DNA of 64,000 nt, taken from Phenylobacterium montanum. GTDB lineage: Bacteria; Pseudomonadota; Alphaproteobacteria; Caulobacterales; Caulobacteraceae. Numbering within the stretch: position 1 is the stretch's first letter; each line of letters opens with the position of its first letter. The notes under the pieces were generated by a model. It had not been told where the DNA came from. It saw only the letters and a program-made list of their open reading frames with translations, and ran no database searches. This document shows, piece by piece, positions 30,868 through 64,000 of this stretch. The DNA lies in contig NZ_CP073078.1 in NCBI RefSeq assembly GCF_018135625.1, positions 558,001 to 622,000 of the forward strand. The letters run 5' to 3'. The translations under genes and the position numbers were made by a program.

Positions 30868-31572
30868 CTATTCGGCGTTTTCAAAATCGAGGCTTCGGTC
30901 GCGTACTCGGAGATCGTAGTCGCCTGGCGCCGTCTCGGTCACGAGGGCGGCTTTGCCTGGCCCGTCGAGTTTAAGCCACTCGAGTCCTTCCTCGAAGTTC
31001 AGCACTGCAGGTTGCCGATCATGCACTGCGGCGACCTCAGGTCCTGGCGGCCCGGTGATGAAGGCGAAGCTTTCGAGCGGCTCTGATTGATCTGACGGAT
31101 GGCATACATCCCAGATCCCGGCGAGGTAGCGAACCTCGTCGAACGCCTCGTTCGCAGCCCATGTCGCCTCCCAGCGCCGTTTTGGCGTCCCTCTTTTCCA
31201 GCCCGGGGGTTCGTCGTATTCGATAAAGGACGTGATCGGGACAAGAACCCGTCGGCGGCGGTATGCTTCGCGAAAGGCTGGCGCGGTATCGACGGTCTCG
31301 ATGCGGGCGTTGGTGCACATGTTCCGCCACGCTGAGACCGGCCCCTTGTGGAAGAAGGGAACTAGCCACCAGCGTCGCTCAATTGATTCGAGACCTTCGG
31401 CAGGATTTGCTGGATCGAGCGGCCTCAGGAGCGGCGCACGGTTTGTCGGCTTGATTGGCTGGTTGAGAGGCCGGTTGGATCTCGGTTCTCGGCGCACCAC
31501 GGGTGTCCGGCCAGTTCCATGCAGCTTCCACCAATCGTCAACGTTGATCCTGATCTGGAATTCGTTGCACAT
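30868..31572 (-). CDS. SOS response-associated peptidase (SRAP/HMCES/YedK family)
   Basis: SRAP-domain protein of 234 residues that, in the family, forms a covalent thiazolidine link to abasic sites in single-stranded DNA. Catalytic positions are present: Cys2 (MCNEFQ), Asn88 (NARIET), Glu118 (ITSFIEYD) and His184 (VHDRQPAVL). The sequence departs from the usual MCGRY and HDRMPVIL versions, so it is a divergent member. Base composition is visibly less G+C-rich than flanking genes. It is preceded at 13 nt by a small zinc-ribbon gene on the same strand, and a LexA box lies upstream of that pair. SOS control is inferred from the box. Confidence 0.9.
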   Translation of the reverse strand: MCNEFQIRINVDDWWKLHGTGRTPVVRREPRSNRPLNQPIKPTNRAPLLRPLDPANPAEGLESIERRWWLVPFFHKGPVSAWRNMCTNARIETVDTAPAFREAYRRRRVLVPITSFIEYDEPPGWKRGTPKRRWEATWAANEAFDEVRYLAGIWDVCHPSDQSEPLESFAFITGPPGPEVAAVHDRQPAVLNFEEGLEWLKLDGPGKAALVTETAPGDYDLRVRDRSLDFENAE

Positions 31573-31585
31573 GAGGATTCCCGGT

Positions 31586-31873
31586 TCAGAGGCCGATCCA
31601 CGCGGGACTCTTCAATCCGTCCGATTTGCCCCAGAGCCGAACATAACGAGAGCGGCATCGCAAACAACGCAGGCGAGCTGCAATCCACCACAGGCTGTGG
31701 CCACGATGCTTCCAGAAGCGCTGGCTGAGATGTTCGGGGGGCCACGCCGCCTGATGTTGGCAGCTATCGCACTCGATCATAATCGTGACGCCGTGGTCGA
31801 TGAGGACCCATAAAGGCCAACCCCGGATGTCCTCTGCAATCTGGTAGGGAGGTCGAGCGTTTGGTTCCGGCAT
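31586..31873 (-). CDS. Small zinc-ribbon-like hypothetical protein
   Basis: Protein of 95 residues with two CxxC pairs, Cys35/Cys38 (IECDSCQH) and Cys70/Cys73 (RLRCLRCRSRYVRLW), which could hold one zinc ion. Between them lies a Trp/His-rich helix (AAWPPEHLSQRFWKHRGHS). Similar short proteins are recurrent hypotheticals in alphaproteobacteria, but no function is known to me. It begins at ATG 31873, lies 13 nt upstream of the SRAP gene on the same strand, and has the LexA box GTTC-N7-GTTC 31-45 nt before its start. I infer a DNA-damage-induced two-gene operon; a nucleic-acid-binding role for the ribbon is a guess. Confidence 0.8.
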   Translation of the reverse strand: MPEPNARPPYQIAEDIRGWPLWVLIDHGVTIMIECDSCQHQAAWPPEHLSQRFWKHRGHSLWWIAARLRCLRCRSRYVRLWGKSDGLKSPAWIGL

Positions 31874-31903
31874 GCCTCGCCTCCACGAATTCGGCCGCCC
31901 AAT

Positions 31904-31918
31904 GTTCTCATAATGTTC
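31904..31918. promoter_or_regulatory. LexA (SOS) box
   Basis: GTTC (31904-31907), spacer TCATAAT, GTTC (31915-31918). This exactly matches the alphaproteobacterial LexA operator GTTC-N7-GTTC. It lies upstream of the zinc-ribbon/SRAP pair on the minus strand and of the 2'-5' RNA ligase-like gene on the plus strand, so it could repress both directions. Confidence 0.8.
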
Positions 31919-32011
31919 TCTTGGGCCAAAGTAAAATCCGAGCCAGGGCGCGAGTGAAACACGCTAATGTCCTGCCGCCAGCGCGCCTCGACGGCTGATG
32001 GGATCTGCGGC

Positions 32012-32602
32012 ATGTCGGAAAAATCGGCGTTTCCAATGGGGATGCGTTCCGAGCCGATGGCCGCCACCGGCCGACTATCGTTTGAAATATTGCCAGACAG
32101 CGCCGGCGTCGAGCAGATCGGGGACGCCGCGCGGCGGCTGAGGGCGGAGAACCGCCTGAGGGGCCGTGCGCTGGAGGCCGGTCGCTTTCACATCACCCTG
32201 CATCACGTCGACGACTATGTCGGCCTGCCGGCGGATGTGGTTGAAAAGATGTCCCGGGCTGCGGAGACGGTGACAGCGGCCCCGTTCGAGGTCGAGTTCG
32301 ACTATGCGGCCAGCTTTTCAGGCCGGCCTGGAAACCGGCCGTTCGTATTAGGAGGCGGCGAGGGGCTGAAGGCCCTAATCGCCTTCCGTAACAATCTGGC
32401 CGACGCGATCCGGCGCACTGGCGTCGGGCGCAAGCCCTCGGCCCAGTTCGTTCCGCATGTCACGCTGCTCTACGATCAACTGGTCATTCAGCAACGGCCG
32501 GTCGAGCCGATCCGCTGGACCGTGCGCGAACTCGTCCTGGTGCACAGCCTCCTTGGCCGAACACAGCACCTCCCGCTCGCCCGGTGGCCATTGAAGGGCT
32601 GA
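32012..32602 (+). CDS. 2'-5' RNA ligase / LigT-like phosphoesterase
   Basis: 2H phosphoesterase-superfamily protein with both HxT motifs, His60 (FHITLHHVDD) and His149 (PHVTLLYD), and an Arg/Lys-rich body ending RTQHLPLARWPLKG. Relatives act as 2'-5' RNA ligases or cyclic phosphodiesterases; the substrate is open. The start is uncertain: ATG 31967, 32012, 32042 and 32057 are in frame. 32057 gives the N-terminus closest to the family (GRLSFEILPD); 32012 has GGGA 8-9 nt upstream. It is divergent from the zinc-ribbon/SRAP operon with a LexA box between, which hints at shared damage control. Confidence 0.85.
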   Translation: MSEKSAFPMGMRSEPMAATGRLSFEILPDSAGVEQIGDAARRLRAENRLRGRALEAGRFHITLHHVDDYVGLPADVVEKMSRAAETVTAAPFEVEFDYAASFSGRPGNRPFVLGGGEGLKALIAFRNNLADAIRRTGVGRKPSAQFVPHVTLLYDQLVIQQRPVEPIRWTVRELVLVHSLLGRTQHLPLARWPLKG

Positions 32603-59788: not shown

Positions 59789-62317
59789 TCAGAACTTGCG
59801 GTTCAGCTCGATGCCGAAGGTGCGCGGGCGCAGGGTGGTGGCTTCATAGAGCGCCGTTGTGTTGTCCTGGTGCTGCAGATTAAGCTGTGGGTGGTCGTTG
59901 AACAGATTGTTGACGTAGAAAGCCAGGTCCCACTTGTCGACCGTCATGCCCGCGCGCGCCGACATTTGGCTATAGGCGGGATTGGGAACCAGTCCGGAAT
60001 CATAGAAGTCGGGATTGGCCGGGTCTTCCGTCGGGATCGGCTTGTTGCGGTGGCTGTTGTATTCGTAATCCGCCCGCACGAAGGCGTCGTGGTCGTTGAT
60101 CGTCAGGTTGTACTGGGCGCCAAGGGTGACGGTCCACGGGACGACATCCAGCACGTCGCCCTTGGCCGCGAGTTGGGACCCGGACACGTGCTCGATCGCA
60201 TTGCCGGTATAGTGGGCGTCGGTATAGCCCACGCTCAGTTCCAGGTCGAAATCCGGCGTAACCTGCCACTGTCCCTGCAGGTCAAAGCCCTGGCTGACGG
60301 CGTTGCCGGCGTTGGCGGTGAACTGGATGCCACAGGTCGGGACATAGATGGCCTGCTGAATGTTCTTCCACTCGATGTAGTAGACGCTGCCTGAGACCTG
60401 CAGCTTGCGATCGAAGAAACGGTCCTTGGACCCGATCTCGTAGTTTGTGACCGTGTCGGAATTATATTCGGTCGGGAAGGTGCCTCCGCACGCCGCCGCG
60501 GGGAGGGGCGGCGTTGCGCCGCCGATCCGGTACCCCTTTGAGAAAGTCGCATAGGCCATGTCGTCCGAGTTGAACTGGTAGGACAGGCTTACCTTCGGAG
60601 TGAACGGCGTCTCGTCCTTTCCGCCTTTGACAGAGTTGAAGGGGTGCCCGTTGATGACCACGATTCCGTCGGAGCAGTTGTCGGGGATCGAAACACCACC
60701 GGCGCCGCAAAGCAGGTCCTGAGAGCCGCCGTTGATGTTATGGTAGTCGAAGTGGGTCCAGGCATAGCGCAGGCCCACATTCAGCTTCAGCGCGTCGGTG
60801 ATCTTGTAGGTGGCGTCGGCAAACAGGGCCACCTGACGATCGTGAGCCTTGGTGTCGTTGATGTAGTCGTCGCCATTGGGCAGCAGGGTGTCGCCCCAGG
60901 CGGTCAGAATGTCTTCGCCCCACAGGTACTCGGAGAGAGCGTTCAACTGCTGATCGCGGATCTCTTCAGTGCTGCGCTGGCTGTTGTGGGCGTAGAACAC
61001 ACCGGCGGTCCAGGTCAGGCGCGCGCCCGGAGTATTCGACTGCAGGCGGACTTCCTGGGTGAAGTTCTCCTGGGTGTTGGTGATCCAGTTGGTCGAAACA
61101 TAGGGCCCGAAACCCGGCAGGTTGAGGCCGTTAGCGTTGAGCAGATTGCCCGTAATGCAGCCCACCTGGCCGTAGTTGGAACCGGTGCAACCGGCAGGCG
61201 TGGCGCCCTGAGGATCGGTGGGAGCGGGAATGGTGTTTCCGCCCTCGTCGGTCGTGGTGGCCGTGGTGAAGTGCTCGAAATAGGAGAGGTTGTACAGCGT
61301 ACCGCTGTAGCCATTCACCCGTTCGCGGCGGTTGTAGTACGAGGTGTTGGCGATCAGCTTCACCGGGCCGAGGTCCCAGTCGATCTTCACAGCCGGCAGA
61401 TAGAACCGGTCCTTGTCGGCCATCCGGTCCGGCGTGCCGCTGTTGTACTGGCCATTCCCCGGATTGGAGGTCGAAACCCAGTATTCGTCGTGATTGTGCT
61501 GGTCACGCTTCTCGTAGTTCATCGAGGGCGTGATCGACAGGTTCGGCGTCACCGCCCAGGTCAGGGCGCCGCGCAGCACATAGGTGTCTGTGCGGTTAGC
61601 GTTCTTGTCGACGCCGCCGACATTGTTGTTGTCGGTGCGATCGACCCAGCCGCCGTCATGGCGGCCCCAGGCGCTCAGACGGAAGCCCAGCTTGTCCTGT
61701 ACGATCGGGCCGCCATAGGCGCCGCCGAACTCGTAGCTGGGTGCGCCGGTCTCGGTCTGCGCGCCCTCGGCGTGGATCATGCCGCTGAAGTCGCTCAGGC
61801 TCGGCTGGGTGGTGATGTAGCGGACCGTGCCGCCTTCCGAGCCGGCGCCGAACAGGGTGCCCTGAGGCCCCCGCAGCACCTCGACGCGCTGCAGGTCGAA
61901 CACGGCGGGCAGGGTGTTGTTGGCGTTCAGGCCCAGGGCGCGCATCTGGATCGGGGTGTCGTCGATATAGATGCCGGTGGTGCCCGAACCTGCGGTGGAC
62001 TCGATGCCCCGGATCGAAACGTCGTGGCGGTCTTCGTTGAAGGTGACGCCGGGGGTGAATTTGGCGAGGTCGGCGAAAGATTTGACCCCCTGGATGTCCA
62101 TCTTGGCCGCCGTGAACGCGCTGACGCTCAGGGGGACCTTGCTCAGCGCCTGGGATTGACGCGTGGCGGTGACGATAATTTCCGTGGTGTCTTGAGGCTT
62201 GGCCTTGGCAGGCGCCGGTGCGGCGGTCTGGGCGAAGGCCGCGGCGCCGCAGACCATCGGGGCGGCGAAGGCGGTGGTCGCCAGCAACAGGCGGCGTAGG
62301 GCGGAATTTCGAGGCAT
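59789..62317 (-). CDS. TonB-dependent receptor
   Basis: Outer-membrane 22-strand receptor, 842 residues from ATG 62317. A signal peptide (RRLLLATTAFAAPMVCGAAAFAQ) is followed by a TonB-box-like DTTEIIVTATRQS, a plug (VPLSVSAFTAAKMDIQGVKSFADLAKFTPGVTF in parts, RVEVLRGPQGTLFGAGSEGGTVRY) and the barrel ending in LNRKF. It is not obviously a siderophore receptor; neighbours suggest an amine or carotenoid-type ligand but this is unproven. ATG 62317 has AAGGAGGGG (62327-62335) upstream. A sigma-73-type promoter and TGTGATC sites lie just upstream, and a strong terminator ends the gene. Confidence 0.93.
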   Translation of the reverse strand: MPRNSALRRLLLATTAFAAPMVCGAAAFAQTAAPAPAKAKPQDTTEIIVTATRQSQALSKVPLSVSAFTAAKMDIQGVKSFADLAKFTPGVTFNEDRHDVSIRGIESTAGSGTTGIYIDDTPIQMRALGLNANNTLPAVFDLQRVEVLRGPQGTLFGAGSEGGTVRYITTQPSLSDFSGMIHAEGAQTETGAPSYEFGGAYGGPIVQDKLGFRLSAWGRHDGGWVDRTDNNNVGGVDKNANRTDTYVLRGALTWAVTPNLSITPSMNYEKRDQHNHDEYWVSTSNPGNGQYNSGTPDRMADKDRFYLPAVKIDWDLGPVKLIANTSYYNRRERVNGYSGTLYNLSYFEHFTTATTTDEGGNTIPAPTDPQGATPAGCTGSNYGQVGCITGNLLNANGLNLPGFGPYVSTNWITNTQENFTQEVRLQSNTPGARLTWTAGVFYAHNSQRSTEEIRDQQLNALSEYLWGEDILTAWGDTLLPNGDDYINDTKAHDRQVALFADATYKITDALKLNVGLRYAWTHFDYHNINGGSQDLLCGAGGVSIPDNCSDGIVVINGHPFNSVKGGKDETPFTPKVSLSYQFNSDDMAYATFSKGYRIGGATPPLPAAACGGTFPTEYNSDTVTNYEIGSKDRFFDRKLQVSGSVYYIEWKNIQQAIYVPTCGIQFTANAGNAVSQGFDLQGQWQVTPDFDLELSVGYTDAHYTGNAIEHVSGSQLAAKGDVLDVVPWTVTLGAQYNLTINDHDAFVRADYEYNSHRNKPIPTEDPANPDFYDSGLVPNPAYSQMSARAGMTVDKWDLAFYVNNLFNDHPQLNLQHQDNTTALYEATTLRPRTFGIELNRKF

Positions 62318-62351
62318 GCGTGGAGTCCCCTCCTTATGGCGGGGTGACGTT

Positions 62352-62375
62352 GGTATGGCTCCGGCCATCGGTCAA
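62352..62375 (-). promoter_or_regulatory. Promoter of the TonB receptor gene
   Basis: On the minus strand TTGACC (62375-62370), a 10-nt spacer and GCCATACC (62359-62352) fit the sigma-73 pattern TTGACG-N10..14-GCTANAWC. The start codon is about 30 nt downstream of the expected start site. Confidence 0.55.
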
Positions 62376-62380
62376 GTCTC

Positions 62381-62408
62381 TGTGATCACATATTTTGCGA
62401 CTGTGATC
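62381..62408. promoter_or_regulatory. TGTGATCACA palindrome and second TGTGATC upstream of the TonB receptor
   Basis: The palindrome TGTGATCACA (62381-62390) lies 5 nt upstream of the receptor's -35 box. A second TGTGATC (62402-62408) starts exactly 21 bp further on, two helical turns. The layout is that of an activator or repressor site pair. The 411-bp region 62318-62729 has no convincing gene. Confidence 0.5.
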
Positions 62409-62712
62409 TCTGCGCCAACTGGCGCCGGGCTGCTGTTCAGGCTATGATGCATTTCTCCGCAGGCTGAACAGGATCTCCGGGGCCGGCCGTCAACGCCGCC
62501 CCTTGCATGCGCCAAGACGCACCATCGAGACGCTCCGCACGCGCGCCGCTCAAGGCGGTGGCCCGTCAGGCGTCGTCAGCTTCGGATTTCGCAACAGTCG
62601 GCTCGATATGTCGAATCTGGCGGCGCCAGCACCGCTGCGCGCCCGACGATTAGCGCCCAAAATCCACTTCAGCATACCGCTCGCGACGCTCCTTGCGTTG
62701 CAAAAACAAATA

Positions 62713-62725
62713 AATTCAGTGAATT
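62713..62725. promoter_or_regulatory. AATTCA-G-TGAATT palindrome before the PuuA-like gene
   Basis: Perfect 13-bp palindrome (62713-62725) ending 4 nt before the ATG at 62730, inside an AT-rich patch. It occupies the ribosome-site region and no strong Shine-Dalgarno is visible, so a regulator bound here could block translation or transcription. Inferred. Confidence 0.4.
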
Positions 62726-62729
62726 GAAA

Positions 62730-64000
62730 ATGGCCAAGAAAAAGAACCGCGTCGCCGAAGAGACGACGCCCATCACCAATGTCGCGGAAGCTAAGGCTTG
62801 GGCCTACGCCCGCGGGGTGACCGAAGTCGAGTGCCTTGTCCCGGACCTCGCCGGCGTCGCCCGCGGCAAGATCATGCCCGCCTCCAAGTTCTTCGAGGAC
62901 ACGGCGATGGCGCTGCCCTCGTCGATCTTCATGCAGACTATCTCGGGGGAATATCCCGAAGAAAACGGCGACTTCCGCTTCGATCCCTCAGACGGCGATC
63001 TGGAGCTGAGGCCCGACTTCTCCAGCCTGTGCGACGTGCCCTGGGCGCCGGAGCCGACCGCGCAGGTGATCCACGACGCCTACTACCGCGATGGCCGACC
63101 GGTCGAGATCGCGCCGCGCCAGGTGCTGAGGCGGGTGCTGGATCTATACCGCAACAAGGGCTGGGAGCCGGTGGTGGCGCCCGAGCTGGAATTCTACCTG
63201 GTCAAGCGCAACACCGACCCCGACTATCCGCTGGAGCCGCCGATCGGCCGCTCCGGGCGGGCGGAGGCCGGCCGCCGCTCCTATTCGATCTCGGCGGTCA
63301 ACGAGTTCGACGCCATCTTCGAAGACATCTACGCCTTCGCCGAGGCCCAGGCGCTGGAGGTCGACACCCTGATCCATGAGGAAGGCGCAGCGCAGATGGA
63401 GATCAACCTGCGCCACGGCGATCCGCTGGTGCTGGCCGACCAGGTGTTCCTGCTCAAGCGCACGATCCGGGAAGCCGCCCTAGCGCACGACATCTACGCC
63501 ACCTTCATGGCCAAGCCGATCGCACACGAGCCGGGCTCGGCCATGCACGTTCACCAGTCGGTGCTGTCGCAGGAGACCGGCAAGAACATCTTCAGTGACG
63601 AGGAGGGGAGGCCGACCCAGGCTTTCTTCAACTTCCTGGGCGGGCACCAGCGCTATGTCCCGGCGGTGACCTGCATCCTGGCGCCCTACGTCAATTCCTA
63701 TCGGCGCCTGGTCAAGGGCGCCTCGGCGCCGGTGAACGTGCAGTGGGGCTATGACAATCGCACCACAGGCCTGCGAATCCCGCCGTCGTCGCCGTCCAAC
63801 CGGCGGATTGAGAACCGGGTGCCGTCGTCGGACGCCAATCCCTACCTGGCTCTGGCGGCCTCCCTGGCCTGCGGCTATCTGGGTCTGGTCGAGGCGCTGT
63901 CGCCCAGCGAACCGGTGAACGGCATGGCCGAAACCGACGAATTCGACCTGCCGGCCGGCTTGCTGGAAGCGGTCAACCTGTTCGAAGAGACCGAGGAACT
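62730..64000 (+). CDS. Glutamine synthetase family protein, PuuA-like (3' partial)
   Basis: Type I-like glutamine synthetase relative of the gamma-glutamylputrescine/gamma-glutamylpolyamine synthetase group; about 423 codons visible, the last 30-40 lie beyond the window. N-terminal part VECLVPDLAGVARGKIMPASKF is typical of PuuA-like enzymes. ATP/metal blocks: APELEFYL, HEEGAAQMEINLRHGD, HVHQSV and RIENRVPSSDANPYLALAA. No adenylylation Tyr loop of GlnA is evident. ATG 62730 has only a weak ribosome site. Beside a SpdH-like oxidase this suggests glutamylation of polyamines or amines, but substrate is inferred. Confidence 0.9.
   Translation, partial: MAKKKNRVAEETTPITNVAEAKAWAYARGVTEVECLVPDLAGVARGKIMPASKFFEDTAMALPSSIFMQTISGEYPEENGDFRFDPSDGDLELRPDFSSLCDVPWAPEPTAQVIHDAYYRDGRPVEIAPRQVLRRVLDLYRNKGWEPVVAPELEFYLVKRNTDPDYPLEPPIGRSGRAEAGRRSYSISAVNEFDAIFEDIYAFAEAQALEVDTLIHEEGAAQMEINLRHGDPLVLADQVFLLKRTIREAALAHDIYATFMAKPIAHEPGSAMHVHQSVLSQETGKNIFSDEEGRPTQAFFNFLGGHQRYVPAVTCILAPYVNSYRRLVKGASAPVNVQWGYDNRTTGLRIPPSSPSNRRIENRVPSSDANPYLALAASLACGYLGLVEALSPSEPVNGMAETDEFDLPAGLLEAVNLFEETEE

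Follow-up and report, generated by a model that had tools for sequence, protein, structure and literature searches.

A zinc-ribbon protein recurrently encoded beside SRAP and behind putative LexA boxes in the Caulobacteraceae

The window, a 64,000-nucleotide stretch of the Phenylobacterium montanum genome (5.65 Mb, two contigs), contains at positions 30868-32602 a small locus of three genes and one putative LexA (SOS) box (Table 1). A zinc-ribbon-like protein, here called ZR, and an SRAP protein are encoded on the same strand, with the ZR stop codon 13 bp ahead of the SRAP start, and a LigT-like gene runs in the opposite direction. The box precedes the ZR ATG by 30 bp and the LigT-like gene by at least 48 bp; which start codon the latter uses, 31967, 32012 or a later one, is uncertain. 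The pair, the divergent reading frame and the exact box are all found where an earlier note on this DNA had placed them. An Rfam scan of the window returned no match, and a search for sigma-70-type promoters across 31850-32080 found none.

Table 1. Features of the locus, in positions of the window.
Feature	Position	Strand	Basis
SRAP (HMCES/YedK-like), 234 aa, gene 2 of 2 in the leftward unit	30868..31572	-	PF02586, catalytic residues
ZR, zinc-ribbon-like protein of 95 aa with four cysteines, gene 1 of 2 in the leftward unit	31586..31873	-	C35, C38, C70, C73
Putative LexA (SOS) box GTTCTCATAATGTTC	31904..31918	.	exact GTTCN7GTTC match
LigT/ThpR-like 2H phosphoesterase, divergent from ZR	31967..32602	+	PF13563, PF02834

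SRAP proteins protect abasic sites against breakage, and to our knowledge their loading, regulation and release in bacteria are largely open questions. The SRAP of the window matches PF02586 (E 5.9e-26; 91.8 bits against a cut-off of 27.1) and PHROG 1599 (E 3.2e-28), and a sequence search from it retrieves the YedK and HMCES structures. Its N-terminus is MCNEF. The cysteine C2 (after Met1 removal) is present in 39 of 39 aligned SRAPs, and N88, E118 and H184 are kept in 39, 39 and 38 of them. These four residues correspond to C2, N75, E105 and H160 of the YedK active site, the roles of which have been described (PMC9436759). Since all four are present, the protein is expected to be catalytically competent, and cross-linking to abasic sites in single-stranded DNA is predicted. 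It resembles HMCES and YedK in its SRAP fold family as judged by sequence, its Cys2 nucleophile, its Asn/Glu/His triad and its SOS setting, but differs in being a divergent 'MCN' type on a long tree branch and in having a zinc-ribbon partner. Distant SRAPs occur on four plasmids, in one case (L105) with a possible zinc ribbon adjoining, and in three phage records; no close SRAP was found in the viral contigs searched.

The ZR has two cysteine pairs, C35-x2-C38 and C70-x2-C73, which are invariant in an alignment of 34 members; W44 and R67 are nearly so. A scan of Pfam and NCBIfam gave no match over cut-off. Its scores for the known zinc-ribbon families zf_Tbcl (18.2 bits against 24), DUF951 (17.1 against 25) and the TFIIS ribbon (13 against 21) all lie under the curated cut-offs. 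An AlphaFold2 model of the protein has a mean pLDDT of 83, and a PDB fold search with it gave no significant match (best E 0.33). Weak fold matches to the zinc domains of HypA and MCM fell short of significance and were discarded. A scan of genome contigs with the single window protein returned one relative only, and a plasmid search with this protein and with a class-wide member returned no ZR match. By its sequence, the window ZR belongs to a putative SOS zinc-ribbon family that is absent from Pfam and NCBIfam, and of which no description was found in a literature search that covered few subscription journals.

Pairing of the two genes was assessed with a seven-member ZR profile, which gave 46 places in 36 of 390 Caulobacteraceae genomes, the surroundings of which were scanned with a custom SRAP profile. 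Among the 45 ZR-seeded loci counted, SRAP is in the fetched region of 36 and within 600 bp in 32, proportions that are biased because some loci are near copies (L092/L093/L151 and L143/L149) and because the seeds of the profile were partly SRAP-linked, favouring SRAP-linked subfamilies. Neither SRAP nor ZR is present at the control loci, these being 16 other LexA-box loci of the window's genome and the 36 LigT loci that lie outside the window. Within the Caulobacteraceae, the link between the zinc ribbon and SRAP proposed earlier is therefore upheld by 36 of the 45 loci. An adjacent SRAP is missing at two complete type-1 ZR loci, L088 and L090, and no ZR-SRAP fusions were found when looked for.

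The arrangement of the genes varies. The order box-ZR-SRAP of the window recurs in L035, a locus in a Caulobacteraceae MAG with a ZR 64% identical to the window member; the same locus was also found as G053, which belongs to the genus of the window's genome. Elsewhere in the window's genome, L104 has the order box-X-ZR-ZR-SRAP, with a ZR identity of 47% and with X a 78-aa protein that starts directly behind the box. The four genes stand in this order in L097 too, a locus from another genus, where the X protein is 47% identical to that of L104 over 64 columns. Other loci have convergent SRAP and ZR genes, a box-ZR unit facing SRAP, or both genes in the same operon. All four SRAP loci found by a Pfam search of the window's genome have a ZR beside them, and an additional ZR at 3992784 faces an SRAP-like ORF (L101). 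In a tree of 83 SRAPs the label for ZR pairing changes at least 6 times. One divergent clade is ZR-paired in 30 of 34 cases and the window clade in 3 of 3, while SRAPs of the canonical MCG type are paired in none of the 27 sampled. The tree keeps the window clade apart from the large paired clade with good support, the deep joins being unsure on account of long branches. Because the arrangements differ and the label changes so many times, the link is best seen as recurrent rather than as one inherited block.

Two further observations concern these regions. On the 96-kb second contig (G000:C2:1-4100; L003, L102) an SRAP gene and a convergent zinc ribbon are flanked by genes resembling imuA and dinB types. 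In several genomes, proteins of the X type (L104:6690-6923; L279-L288), with the motif FEGxxAWFExE, begin immediately after an SOS box; comparison of X with curated families gave no match above cut-off.

The pairing theme is not wholly new. Two Zn-ribbon-like domains have been reported in SRAP-Ku neighbourhoods (Aravind et al. 2013, PMC3765255). Likened to these by description only, the present loci share with them a DNA-damage context in which SRAP adjoins predicted zinc-ribbon proteins, and differ in having no Ku among the genes inspected. Given that report from Ku operons, the description of a zinc-ribbon partner of SRAP as 'undescribed' in the earlier note was too strong.

GTTCN7GTTC is the established Caulobacter LexA consensus (PMC12700426). 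The bare pattern is not rare. The window has 3 matches where 1.45 are expected, a count attained by 14 of 100 shuffles, and the genome has 142 matches against 94 for the reversed pattern, so that the box might be thought a chance match among ordinary constitutive neighbours. This is very improbable, however, in view of the proximity of the box to the ZR start, its spacer, which is A/T at 6 of 7 positions, and its presence ahead of ZR and SRAP in L035 and L104 also. Of the 45 loci, 18 have the pattern no more than 300 bp ahead of ZR or SRAP, compared with 0 for the reversed pattern. Position, spacer and recurrence in relatives thus make the window box credible. Among the first 100 of the 142 genomic matches listed, spacer composition is bimodal, with peaks at 2 A/T and 6 A/T, and 17 have 6 or 7 A/T.

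The same box precedes lexA (L195), imuA (L190) and a SplB-like radical SAM gene (L181) in the window's genome, these names having been assigned by eye from the sequences. The lexA box, GTTCTCTAGGTGTTC, is 31 bp ahead of the start and has a less A/T-rich spacer, that of imuA is 14 bp upstream of the gene, and the spacers before imuA and the SplB-like gene are A/T-rich. At the level of sequence, the lexA and imuA boxes suggest that the LexA of this organism uses GTTCN7GTTC. Because these three genes have the box, control of the ZR-SRAP pair by LexA, as the earlier note had claimed, is likely, and box position and recurrence in relatives agree with it. The locus is like the Caulobacter LexA regulon in consensus, spacer type and promoter position, and in having lexA and imuA boxed in the same genome. 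It is unlike it in that the main texts read do not describe the ZR family as belonging to the regulon; the text of the Caulobacter LexA study (PMC12700426) makes no mention of SRAP or zinc.

Other reading frames are associated with such boxes. Paralogous ORFs of 217-277 aa (RLTMALEARL / RQTLALEARL) start right at A/T-rich SOS boxes in L182, L186, L190, L192 and L194 of the window's genome and at L088:9574-10263, being multi-copy in one genome. A small helical ORF (MLTQKIDGALDAILACM...) lies behind the identical box GTTCTATATTTGTTC at both L184 and L185 of the window's genome, and a homologue of it directly precedes a zinc ribbon in L088 (8203-8538).

ZR relatives are not confined to the Caulobacteraceae. 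A 34-member profile gave matches in 41 of 220 alphaproteobacterial genomes. In the 29 loci outside the Caulobacteraceae (L290-L318), 17 have the exact box in the 250 bp ahead of the ZR domain (control 0) and 1 has SRAP nearby. The class-wide members have the core motif FCWCNRCxHNA...RCSxCGSKDVATRPAWP, show homology to the window type when profiles are compared (probability 97.3, E 2.2e-11), and are covered by no family among the curated ones tested. Several of these loci share neighbours that resemble, by eye, DUF2794 and YfgM-like genes. The check proposed in the earlier note, whether the zinc-ribbon gene is usually found without SRAP, gives a split result: in Caulobacteraceae ZR is mostly with SRAP, but its relatives in the class are mostly without SRAP and with the box. 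With an adjacent SRAP in so few of the outside loci, ZR cannot need SRAP everywhere. The presence of boxes without SRAP argues that the primary association of the family is with LexA, SRAP being a lineage-specific partner.

It is possible, though somewhat doubtful, that ZR is an independent SOS effector, acting for example in replication, in transcription or with a translesion polymerase, and that it lies beside SRAP in the Caulobacteraceae only since the two LexA targets move and settle as a pair, with no direct mechanism between them. The class-wide counts and the homology of the two types fit this, as does L090, where a box and ZR are present without an adjacent SRAP. A common regulator alone fails, however, to explain why the genes are adjacent at 32 of 45 loci, in varied orientations and with separate SRAP clades, and convergent SRAP and ZR genes are unable to share one promoter.

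The LigT-like protein matches PF13563 (E 1.4e-13) and PF02834 (E 4.4e-12), and its HxTL motifs, HITL (H75) and HVTL (H164), have histidines that are invariant in the alignment. A profile of its homologues retrieves solved RNA 2',3'-cyclic phosphodiesterases. The score against TIGR02258, the ThpR equivalog, is 42.8 bits, under the cut-off of 65.7. In Deinococcus the cinA-ligT-recA operon is damage-induced (PMC5552922). The window protein is like the LigT/ThpR 2H superfamily in having both HxTx motifs and a damage-controlled relative in Deinococcus, and is unlike Deinococcus ligT/ThpR in falling under the equivalog cut-off, in its different regulator and in lacking recA linkage here.

The earlier note had treated LigT as part of one locus with the zinc ribbon and SRAP, and the divergent genes on both sides of one box would suit a single module with a shared bidirectional LexA box, combining lesion protection with the repair of damaged RNA ends. 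The Deinococcus operon is in keeping with such a module, as are the 11 of 74 LigT homologues with a GTTCN7GTTC box of their own in the preceding 300 bp (control 0). One of these, in L204, is GTTCTTGTTATGTTC, 26 bp before the ATG and identical to two functional C. crescentus boxes. Even so, SRAP or ZR is near LigT at only 1 of 37 LigT loci, namely the window's own, which rules LigT out as an obligate part of a ZR-SRAP module. The closest LigT orthologues (L198-L203, 48-57% identity) are without a box, and the third-position GC (GC3) of LigT is unlike that of SRAP and ZR. The three-gene module is therefore unlikely, and co-regulation with the neighbouring pair is the most that can be ascribed to LigT; that the box serves LigT as well as ZR-SRAP is plausible. 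Box-bearing LigT-like 2H phosphoesterases away from SRAP and ZR are present at L204:1394-1435 and L207:2091-2153, and more at L260, L262, L271, L272, L274, L275, L277 and L278. These homologues with their own boxes suggest that RNA-end processing is recurrently tied to the SOS response.

The base composition of the locus differs from its flanks, as had been noted before. The GC content at 31001-32000 is 0.603; no other 1-kb segment of the window is lower, though 60001-61000 nearly equals it (0.605). GC3 is 0.67 for SRAP and ZR and 0.77 for LigT, against 0.81-0.91 for the neighbours measured. The flanking genes tested are all missing from the neighbourhood of the homologous pairs in L035 and L104. 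There is an integrase-like ORF near L104, and recombinase- and excisionase-like ORFs near L097 (names by eye). The low GC3 and the changing neighbours suggest that the ZR-SRAP pair was acquired by transfer, and mobility fits. Of the transferred repair or defence module envisaged earlier, transfer is consistent with the composition and the other contexts, whereas an anti-phage defence role finds no support and was rejected, a PADLOC scan of the ZR, SRAP and LigT proteins giving no match. A second low-GC stretch, at 60001-63000 of the window, has a GC content of 0.605-0.648 and a changed skew.

The best of the readings, to which we give a probability of about 0.5, is a small SOS locus in which ZR acts directly beside SRAP. 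LexA bound at 31904-31918 would repress a leftward promoter from which ZR and, after it, SRAP would be read as one unit, and DNA damage would release this unit through RecA-triggered cleavage of LexA. With its N-terminal Cys2, SRAP would then attach to abasic sites of single-stranded DNA, shielding them as YedK and HMCES do. As the first product of the presumed shared transcript, ZR would most likely be beside SRAP at single-stranded gaps. It may be a small nucleic-acid- or protein-binding adaptor that places or releases SRAP, or that links SRAP to the translesion machinery. Expression of the divergent LigT, a putative RNA-end phosphodiesterase of the kind that recurs on its own behind SOS boxes, may be raised through this box as well.

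More broadly, we tentatively regard the ZR family as an overlooked LexA-controlled SOS component across the Alphaproteobacteria, which may have been repeatedly recruited as the partner of SRAP in the Caulobacteraceae. Having no curated profile and being recurrently found beside SRAP and behind a LexA box, the family is a directly testable candidate. The LexA-box relatives without SRAP in many alphaproteobacterial families suggest an SOS component that is open to knockout in ordinary laboratory species.
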